64,000 nt of DNA from Progne subis subis (lineage: Eukaryota; Chordata; Aves; Passeriformes; Hirundinidae). A model generated the notes under the pieces. The model saw nothing but the letters and a program-made list of their open reading frames with translations. It made no database searches and had not been told where the DNA came from. Location of the stretch: assembly GCA_022316685.1 (NCBI GenBank), contig JAKJHU010000083.1:2232001-2296000 (forward strand), given 5' to 3'. The translations under genes were made by a program, and so were the position numbers. The stretch's first letter is position 1, and every line of letters begins with the position of its first letter. This document shows positions 60,901-63,091 of this stretch, in pieces.

Positions 60901-63091
60901 TGATTTGAAATGGAAGCTTGTTACTGTGACTTGATTGGGTCAAAGATCTGCTCAGATACCTGTCTTTGGAAGCAAAGGCCACCTCTAATTAGCACATTGG
61001 AAGAGATATTTGTGTGATGCCTCCAGGCTACAGTAAGGCAGCCAGGATACCTCCAGTGAGCAATTTTAAAATGAGATAAATCTAATTGTGCCATCCCAGT
61101 AATGTGGGTTTATTGTGGTGTCTGTTGTTCAGCTAATCAGCATTCAATTGTCAGTGAACCAGCTGCAGAAGCATTGCATGCTGAGGGGAATTTGATAGTT
61201 GCAGGATACGATTTATTCCTAAAAAGCATTAAATAAAAAGCCTTGTTTGATGTTTTTAACCTGTGCTTAATGTAATTTGATTTGGTTTTATATCTGTGTC
61301 GATTTGGGCTCAGCACATTGATGGTTTGGGTTTAATACCTGTGTAGGTTTGAGGATGGAATATTGATGGTTTGGGTTTGTATCTTTGTAGGTTTGGGCAC
61401 AGAACATTGATGGTTTGGGTTTATATCTCTGTAGGTTTGGGCATGGAACCTTCATGGTTTGTTTGGAGAACATTTACAAGAAGATCACTGGCAAAGACCT
61501 AAAGTATGAAGCGTTGATGGGCAAACCCAGCAGGCTGACATACCAGTATGCAGAGCACCTGATCCGGGCCCAGGCCCTGCAGAGGAGCTGGGAGCAGCCC
61601 ATCCAGACCCTCTATGCTGTGGGGTAAGGTGTGCTGAGCCCCAAAGATACGCCAGGAAATCCCAGCCCATCCAGACCCTCTATGCTGTGGGGTAAGGTGT
61701 GCTGAGCCCCAAAGATACACCAGGAAATCCCAGCCCATCCAGACCCTCTATGCTGTGGGGTAAGGTGTGCTGAGCCCCAAAGATACACCAGGAAATCCCA
61801 GCCCATCCAGACCCTCTATGCTGTGGGGTAAGGTGTGCTGAGCCCCAAAGATACACCAGGAAATCCCAGCCCATCCAGACCCTCTATGCTGTGGGGTAAG
61901 GTGTGCTGAGGCCCAAAGATACACCAGGAAATCCCAGCCCATCCAGACCCTCTGTCCTGTGGGGTAAGGTGTGCTGAGCCCCACAGGTACAGTAGGAAAT
62001 TACTCACAGTGTAAATGCCAGCCAAGAAAAGCACACAACTTTTACCAGATTGTTTCTCCTGTGATTAAGACCATCAGCCTTTCTTGGTGCTATGGTATCT
62101 CTTTTTATGTGTAATTTCTGCAGAAGCACAAAAGGTGTTTTATATGCAACTAAGATTTCTCCTGATTTCTTTTACTTATTTTTTTCTCTGTAATAGTCTG
62201 TGCCAATCTAACAAAAAGGGGTTGCCTGGGTGTGTATTGTGTTAGGTTTAGTGGTGTAACACCAACTGCCCTTGAGCCAAGGACAGTTAGAGACCGTAGA
62301 GATGGACTTTATCTCTGAGGTCACTTAGGTTGGTCATATGCTATTGTGTGTGTTGCCACATCATAGAATCCTTCTCAGAGAAGATAAAGCTCTATTGTAT
62401 TAAAGACTGTTCCAGAGTCTCCAAGATGTTTGGAAATATAATAAGCTCATTCATGGGCTAATCATACCTTGATTTTCCCTCCCCAATCTGCAGCATGGAG
62501 AGTGATTAGTTTTGATCCTGTCATGCTTCGTGAAAATGGTGCAATAAAATAGCTGCAGGGTTGGATTTCTCCGTCTGCCCAATTCCACATAGAGCTGCGT
62601 AAAGCAGACAATAAACCCTTAAATGGGAACTGTAAAAATGAAACTGTGAGAATGTCTTTTGACAGCATGATGACTTCATGTTCTCCTTTTGCAGGGACAA
62701 TCTGATGACAGACGTGTATGGTGCCAACCTGTACAACCGCTACCTGCAGGAGAGCTCCAGGACAGGTCCCAAATCCCTCCTCCAGGCCAAGGCTTCTGTG
62801 GGCAGAGGCTCTGCCACGCTCCCTCAGGACCATGAGGTCAGCCTCAGCTGGGAGAACGAGCTGGCCTCTGCAGCTGCTGCCTGCTGCAGGTCCGTGCTGG
62901 TGTGCACGGGGGTGTACAGCCCCCACCCTGAGGTGCCCCCGGACAGCAGGGACAGCATCGCTGGCGCCGCCTTCCACGGCCACAGGGACTTCAGGTTTGA
63001 CCCCGGCCTGGTGGAACCCAATCACATCGTGCCAGACGTGGATGCTGCTGTGGACCTGGTCTTCCAGCTGGAGAACTTTGTGCCTAATTGA
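54692..63091 (+). CDS. HDHD5: HDHD5-like HAD-superfamily class IIA hydrolase
   Basis: Eight coding exons: 54,692-54,805, 56,675-56,884, 57,534-57,646, 58,299-58,392, 59,573-59,606, 60,150-60,324, 61,435-61,623, 62,695-63,091 (1,326 nt, 441 residues; human HDHD5/CECR5 is about 423). HAD signatures are all present: motif I DIDGVL with D50 and D52, motif II Thr in VFVTNAG (T87), the motif III Lys in MGKPS (K277), and metal-binding D311 and D316 in VGDNLMTDVYGAN. LFGEPVRWETSLQL and the final FHGHRDFRFDPGLVEPNH are typical of this family. The first 38 residues are Arg-rich without acidic residues apart from one Glu, fitting a mitochondrial targeting sequence. The substrate is unknown. It may be a paralogue rather than the human HDHD5 orthologue, because human HDHD5 is not beside ISY1. 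The exon 3 donor (caaga|gtatct) is weak, and exon 7 is flanked by tandem arrays. Confidence 0.93.
59245..59332. repeat. degenerate ~30-bp repeat in HDHD5-like intron 4
   Basis: Three related units built on acaagtaatttaaacaact, acaagcaatttaaacaacc and acaagtgattttaacaact. It is an intronic minisatellite of low copy number. Confidence 0.75.
61281..61457 (+). repeat. ~44-bp tandem array spanning the exon 7 acceptor
   Basis: Four units of about 44-45 bases begin with tttgg(g)ttt and end cattgatgg or cttcatgg. Each unit carries the acceptor-like position tctctgtag|gtttggg or its variant. The last unit holds the true exon 7 boundary (AG at 61,433-61,434), so the first ~23 exon bases are repeat-derived or were the template of the repeat. 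Units two and three have intact AG at 61,345-61,346 and 61,389-61,390; unit one has gtgtcg instead. Confidence 0.9.
61598..62005 (+). repeat. 68-bp tandem array, six copies, duplicating the exon 7 donor
   Basis: Copies begin at 61,598, 61,666, 61,734, 61,802, 61,870 and 61,938. Each starts with the last 26 exon bases (cccatccagaccctctatgc...) followed by the donor gg|gtaaggtg and ~42 intronic bases. Copies two to four appear identical; copy one differs by one base (tacgcc for tacacc), copy five by one (gaggccc), and copy six diverges, most strongly near its end. Only copy one is in the correct coding position. Confidence 0.97.

Follow-up and report, generated by a model that had tools for sequence, protein, structure and literature searches.

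The window, i.e. the whole 64-kb stretch of DNA analysed here, carries on its + strand a complete HDHD5 (CECR5) gene, whose eight joined exons give a stop-free reading frame of 441 aa with exon junctions that match the proteins of relatives, the coding sequence at the junctions being unchanged. Exon 7 lies between two long introns, i.e. intron 6 of 1110 nt and intron 7 of 1071 nt.

54692..63091, + strand: HDHD5 coding span, eight exons (exon joining at GT-AG boundaries)
54692-54805, 56675-56884, 57534-57646, 58299-58392, + strand: HDHD5 exons 1-4 (exon joining)
59573-59606, 60150-60324, 61435-61623, 62695-63091, + strand: HDHD5 exons 5-8 (exon joining)
61435..61623, + strand: HDHD5 exon 7, length 189 nt, starting and ending in phase 2, its last base 61623 followed by the true donor (exon joining; Hirundo rustica HDHD5)

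In a protein search the top match was the HDHD5 of the barn swallow, Hirundo rustica (P0001), with 99 % identity at 100 % coverage and four residue differences (F39L, V358I, C373R and N419D, from the window to the barn swallow), which supports both the gene identity and the exon 7 proposed in the first-pass annotation; a swallow would thus be the most likely source of the DNA, be it another species or a variant of the barn swallow. The Pfam domains Hydrolase_6 and Hydrolase_like both scored above their curated cut-offs, and the nearest solved relative is yeast YKR070W, annotated as 'uncharacterized'; judged by full-length similarity and these domains, HDHD5 is a HAD-like hydrolase. A second barn swallow record (P0010) is missing exon 3 and contains LVCPS, encoded in the window just 5' of exon 4 (58285-58330), likely reflecting a prediction error or an alternative acceptor.

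Two protein searches, from which the best 120 of 1499 and the best 120 of 1650 matches were taken, yielded 146 distinct proteins. The normal exon 6/7 junction, SPRFGHGTF, occurs in 143 of these 146 listed proteins and the exon 7/8 junction, LYA[VI]GDN, in 114, with both present in the two listed swallow records (P0001 and P0010), which reflect annotators' predictions rather than RNA seen. Among the first 120 listed, 13 are without LYA[VI]GDN, i.e. 12 'partial' records that pass from LYAVG to later exon 8 sequence and one that reads LCAVGDN. The second set holds 19 such records, two of which end at LYAVG; these two of the 146 listed, from Locustella (P0122) and Neodrepanis (P0131), are 'partial' and have the start of the protein missing too. 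No swallow protein ending at LYAVG was found among the 146 listed, where it would rank near the top of the second search.

As for the rest of the window, the sole array with a period of at least 40 that TRF listed beyond those in HDHD5 is an 87-bp tandem pair (79 %, 27276-27445), which by impression resembles a bird LTR. A G+C-rich stretch at 34-36 kb is followed by around 18 kb of positive GC skew (34000-54000), as in a long + strand transcription unit. Ten long open frames elsewhere in the window, including those in the skewed stretch, gave no Pfam match at E 0.01, and no Rfam family reached its gathering score in 34000-64000.

The donor of exon 7 lies within a tandem array.

61595..62002, + strand: donor-side tandem array of six 68-bp units (TRF; copies in register; repeat finder)
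61595, 61663, 61731, 61799, 61867, 61935, + strand: unit starts of the donor-side array (copies in register)

TRF reported this array at 61595-62000 with a period of 68, 6.0 copies, 97 % matches and a score of 756, whereas 20 shuffles of the 64-kb window that preserved dinucleotides scored 61 at most, so that the six tandem copies across the exon 7 donor described before are real. Regarding the unit, the best register starts at 61595 and consists of 29 exon-end bases (61595-61623), the donor and 39 intron bases, instead of the 26 exon bases first given. Copies 2, 3 and 4 share one sequence, from which copies 1 and 5 deviate at 1/68 bases apiece, and any two of copies 1-5 differ at 0-2/68; the near-identity earlier ascribed to copies 2-5 is therefore correct but too narrow, as copy 1 belongs with them, and the proposed recent origin of most copies agrees with a divergence as in a young minisatellite. 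Copy 6 carries 8/68 differences, two in the exon-derived and six in the intron-derived part. Assuming a neutral rate in birds of 2-3 x 10^-9 per site per year, the mean of 0.8 differences per 68 among copies 1-5 would correspond to around 2-3 million years of separation and the distance of 0.128 for copy 6 to around 20-30 million years, rough estimates that gene conversion would make too young. It is plausible that the copy number varies between individuals. The array had no match in the plasmid collection, the sole record collection compared.

Each unit brings its own donor, five of which are surplus.

61624..61629, + strand: donor 1, GTAAGG, the expected functional donor (exon joining; U1 pairing)
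61692..61697, + strand: surplus donor 2, 9-mer identical to that of donor 1; its use would lengthen the exon to 257 nt and put the stop 64 nt 5' of the last junction
61760..61765, + strand: surplus donor 3, identical 9-mer
61828..61833, + strand: surplus donor 4, identical 9-mer
61896..61901, + strand: surplus donor 5, 9-mer identical to that of donor 1; its hairpin is the weakest (-8.1 kcal/mol)
61964..61969, + strand: surplus donor 6, 9-mer identical to that of donor 1; lies in the copy that has diverged most

All six read GGG/GTAAGG exactly, i.e. the five surplus consensus donors already recognized are identical to the true one, and each has a calculated U1 pairing of -9.7 kcal/mol. With this value donor 1 ranks third among the seven true HDHD5 donors, after those of exon 6 (-11.7) and exon 4 (-10.3). 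When 74 GT sites in intron 7 were scored for U1 pairing, the six donors of the array came out best, followed in seventh place by CAG/GTACAG within copy 6 (-9.4).

Exon 7 ends in phase 2, and read-through past donor 1 completes Gly310 and then meets TAA. Joined to exon 8, donors 2-6 all give a protein of 310 aa ending in TLYAVG, as had been predicted together with the loss of D311 and D316; exon 7 would then measure 257-529 nt, and the stop would lie 64, 132, 200, 268 and 336 nt, respectively, 5' of the last junction. The 310-aa product keeps Pfam Hydrolase_6 and loses Hydrolase_like as well as D311 and D316 of the GDxxxxD stretch (HAD motif IV). Nonsense-mediated decay is expected for stops more than 50-55 nt before the last junction. 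Considering that the stops lie 64-336 nt before it, the mRNA more probably decays than yields a truncated protein, and the truncated isoform suggested before is weakened accordingly, the more so as neither listed swallow protein ends there. Small introns within the array, running from a unit's donor to an AG in the following unit (around 68 nt), were set aside by eye for want of a clear pyrimidine tract. Two intronic AATAAA signals lie at 62543 and 62610, and it was considered that surplus U1 sites might block them.

A second array, which the first-pass annotation did not mention, covers the acceptor of the same exon.

61281..61457, + strand: acceptor-side tandem array of four 44-45-bp units (TRF; pairwise comparison)
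61345..61346, + strand: decoy acceptor AG; its use would move the exon start 88 nt upstream, to 61347, with a stop after 267 aa
61389..61390, + strand: decoy acceptor AG; its use would move the exon start 44 nt upstream, to 61391, with a stop after 283 aa
61433..61434, + strand: true exon 7 acceptor AG, in the last unit of the acceptor array (exon joining; SPR/FGHGTF junction)

TRF placed it at 61281-61461 (44 bp x 4.1, 80 % matches, score 227). The copies begin at 61281, 61325, 61370 and 61414 and differ pairwise at 6-11/44 bases; at such distances (0.15-0.30) they would be as old as copy 6 of the donor array or older. As on the donor side, the unit contains both exon and intron bases, i.e. 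an intron-end half and an exon-start half, with a TRF half-period of 22 bp at 58 %. The acceptor TAG/GTTTG is kept in copies 2 and 3, and in copy 1 TCGA replaces TAGG, by which the AG is lost. Both decoys shift the frame, and three weaker AGs nearby likewise give early stops. The true acceptor and copy 3 each have a pyrimidine share of 0.69 and copy 2 has one of 0.56, a measure that thus fails to separate the true acceptor from a decoy. In all three intervals TTGAT, a candidate branch point, is found 25-26 nt 5' of the AG of the next copy, although this is a loose five-base motif match with 12 occurrences in the 285 bases scanned; the TTGAT candidate of the true acceptor sits in exon-derived repeat. 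Separately, at 61435-61457 the HDHD5 of the tree sparrow (P0021) has SPRFVHRTFMVC in place of the SPRFGHGTFMVC found in the other listed proteins checked, and the H-R-T of this record recurs in the reading of the swallow decoy copy 3, which might weakly hint at an exchange between array and exon in that bird.

The donors were also compared by their local folds.

61954..61989, + strand: hairpin over donor 6, outer stem of ten pairs, -21.4 kcal/mol (z -3.98, 0/200 shuffles as stable)

Folds of 36 nt around the donor gave -12.5 kcal/mol for copies 1-4, -8.1 for copy 5 and -21.4 for copy 6, and the other six donors of HDHD5 fold with -2.0 to -10.8 kcal/mol. With 200 shuffles for each copy, the hairpins of copies 1 and 2 reached z -2.14 (7/200 as good; copies 3 and 4 equal copy 2) and that of copy 5 z -0.21 (71/200 as good). 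A value of -21.4 was reached in 5 of 9138 sampled 36-nt stretches of the window, all very G+C-rich; among the 2874 stretches with a G+C content of 0.50-0.67 none reached it and 6.8 % reached -12.5. In a simulation that put eight substitutions at random into the common unit, -21.4 was attained by a fraction of 0.0001 of the 20 000 variants, unchanged under a transition bias. Copy 6 may have gained its stem or kept it. When longer stretches are folded, the six copies, that of the true donor among them, hardly differ in how far their donor is calculated to be paired (0.74-0.77). This likeness, and the fact that the copy 6 hairpin was noticed first and tested afterwards, speak against a special role for it.

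Taken together, we think it rather probable that HDHD5 exon 7 is flanked by two tolerated splice-site minisatellites, with donor 1 in use, leakage removed by decay and the surplus donors mostly passengers. The two arrays would have arisen as independent, splice-site-bearing minisatellites at the edges of one exon, the donor array probably when 68 bp spanning the border of exon 7 and intron 7 were duplicated in tandem, with copy 6 as an older duplication and copies 1-5 as a recent expansion, or else homogenized by gene conversion. Exon 7 is counted as exon-defined since introns 6 and 7 exceed the limit of around 250 nt given in the available part of PMC9225289, and recognition by exon definition would favour the donor nearest the exon, i.e. 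copy 1. The same accessible sections report that, where identical strong donors were placed in exons between long introns, the upstream donor alone was used in five minigenes, and that it is also preferred in near-equal donor pairs of human transcripts; without a strength filter the downstream donor is preferred in around 60 % of human events, and when identical donors were weakened, exon skipping prevailed in the larger constructs (PMC9225289). For acceptors, the upstream preference is there described as reduced, not reversed, in exon-defined cases. From exon definition and these published minigenes donor 1 is therefore expected to dominate, the choice of acceptor being less certain. Leakage to distal donors would end after residue 310 and probably be cleared by nonsense-mediated decay, leaving the surplus donors mostly as passengers or, at most, as extra docking sites for U1.

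The intact 441-aa frame obtained with donor 1 and the last acceptor, together with the full-length barn swallow match, argues for the passenger reading, and by analogy so does human ABCA7, which, as far as the available part of PMC5954066 goes, shows that a donor-bearing VNTR is compatible with a working gene. On the other side, alternative ABCA7 transcripts are described in the same report as abundant rather than rare, which by the same analogy speaks against this reading. Arrays on both edges of one exon are an unlikely neutral coincidence: when units of 68 and 44 bp were placed at random 400 000 times within the gene span of 8.4 kb, 0.18 % of the placings had one unit covering a donor and its partner covering an acceptor, and in 0.024 % these two sites belonged to the same exon, a test that is suggestive at best, being post hoc and on one gene. 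Moreover, six donors have been kept identical though five should be free to decay; youth accounts for this in copies 2-5, and less well in copy 6 with its eight other changes. The acceptor side is also less reassuring, as decoy copy 3 matches the true acceptor in pyrimidine share.

It is tempting to ask whether array length instead tunes the output of HDHD5 as in ABCA7, with more donors leading to more decay or altered exon inclusion and the acceptor decoys acting alike. We give this an appreciable minority chance, considering that all five surplus donors and both TAG/GTTTG decoy acceptors lead to a premature stop, that a longer ABCA7 VNTR accompanies lower expression and more exon 19 skipping in the portions available of PMC5954066, and that U1 binding 3' of a natural donor can promote exon inclusion, as the accessible text of PMC5933811 reports for PAH exon 11. 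However, retention of one unit in ABCA7 was unchanged by VNTR length (PMC5954066), and exon definition as outlined in PMC9225289 predicts near-exclusive use of donor 1. A wider version, in which exon 7 is controlled from both sides, decoys lead to decay, array length sets the amount of functional mRNA and donor 6 is silenced by its hairpin, appears unlikely.

Turning to the array itself, it is quite improbable that the donor copy number is an assembly artefact. Copies 2-4 are identical, which would suit such an error and because of which three separate copies are not provable from sequence, yet the private differences in copies 1, 5 and 6 establish at least four kinds of unit, and an error hardly explains an array longer than two units. 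Very unlikely, too, is that the edges of exon 7 are being replaced, i.e. that boundary-spanning duplication is on its way to a new intron or a shifted boundary: the spacing of TTGAT before the next AG in the last three acceptor intervals and the new intron that the available part of PMC4974935 describes in potato RdRp would fit, but the coding sequence needs no new intron, the junctions are unchanged and the branch-point motif is loose. Hardly credible, finally, is a functional 310-aa isoform from the distal donors, missing the end of the catalytic domain. Each of donors 2-6 would give the identical product, and two listed records end at LYAVG; against this, decay is expected at the distances of these stops, Hydrolase_like is lost, the two records are incomplete at the front too and come from other families, and the isoform is absent from the swallow proteins listed, where a high rank would be expected. 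The arrangement is real, well formed and instructive; most likely it represents two minisatellites that are tolerated, while a measurable influence of the arrays on splicing has a fair chance.

A donor-bearing tandem array is an already known kind, as the intron 18 VNTR of human ABCA7 is a direct precedent. According to the available part of PMC5954066, its 25-bp unit begins with the donor GT of exon 18, it is polymorphic with 12 to about 427 copies, and in some transcripts the donor one unit on is used, giving a frameshift and a premature stop, with such transcripts increasing under translation block. HDHD5 exon 7 shares the tandem array at the exon end, the unit containing the exon's own donor and the premature stop from the donor one unit on. 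In contrast to ABCA7, with its 25 bp and RNA data, the HDHD5 array is known by sequence only and has six copies of a 68-bp unit with 29 exon bases and an in-frame stop; a second array occupies the other edge of the exon. The exon bases and in-frame stop in each unit and this second array are the variant features. In a literature coverage that was partial, we found no report of the HDHD5 arrays, nor of any single exon whose acceptor and donor both lie in tandem arrays.

The acceptor side resembles potato RdRp, where a duplication across an intron-exon boundary created a new intron (PMC4974935, in the part available), in being a tandem duplication across such a boundary that includes a branch site, pyrimidine tract and AG, here as candidates; unlike RdRp, the HDHD5 model does without a new intron, and the four copies persist as decoys. 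As in the minigenes of PMC9225289, so far as its accessible part describes them, identical donors lie in one exon between long introns, but those were built and had two donors, while the HDHD5 exon is native and has six at equal 68-nt steps. Choice among truly identical donors was previously tested in built minigenes, and HDHD5 offers a natural series of six, in which each wrong choice would appear in RNA as a 68-nt ladder step. If array length varies among swallows, the locus would provide a ready test of the proximity rules and of the effect of a minisatellite on gene output, comparable to ABCA7.
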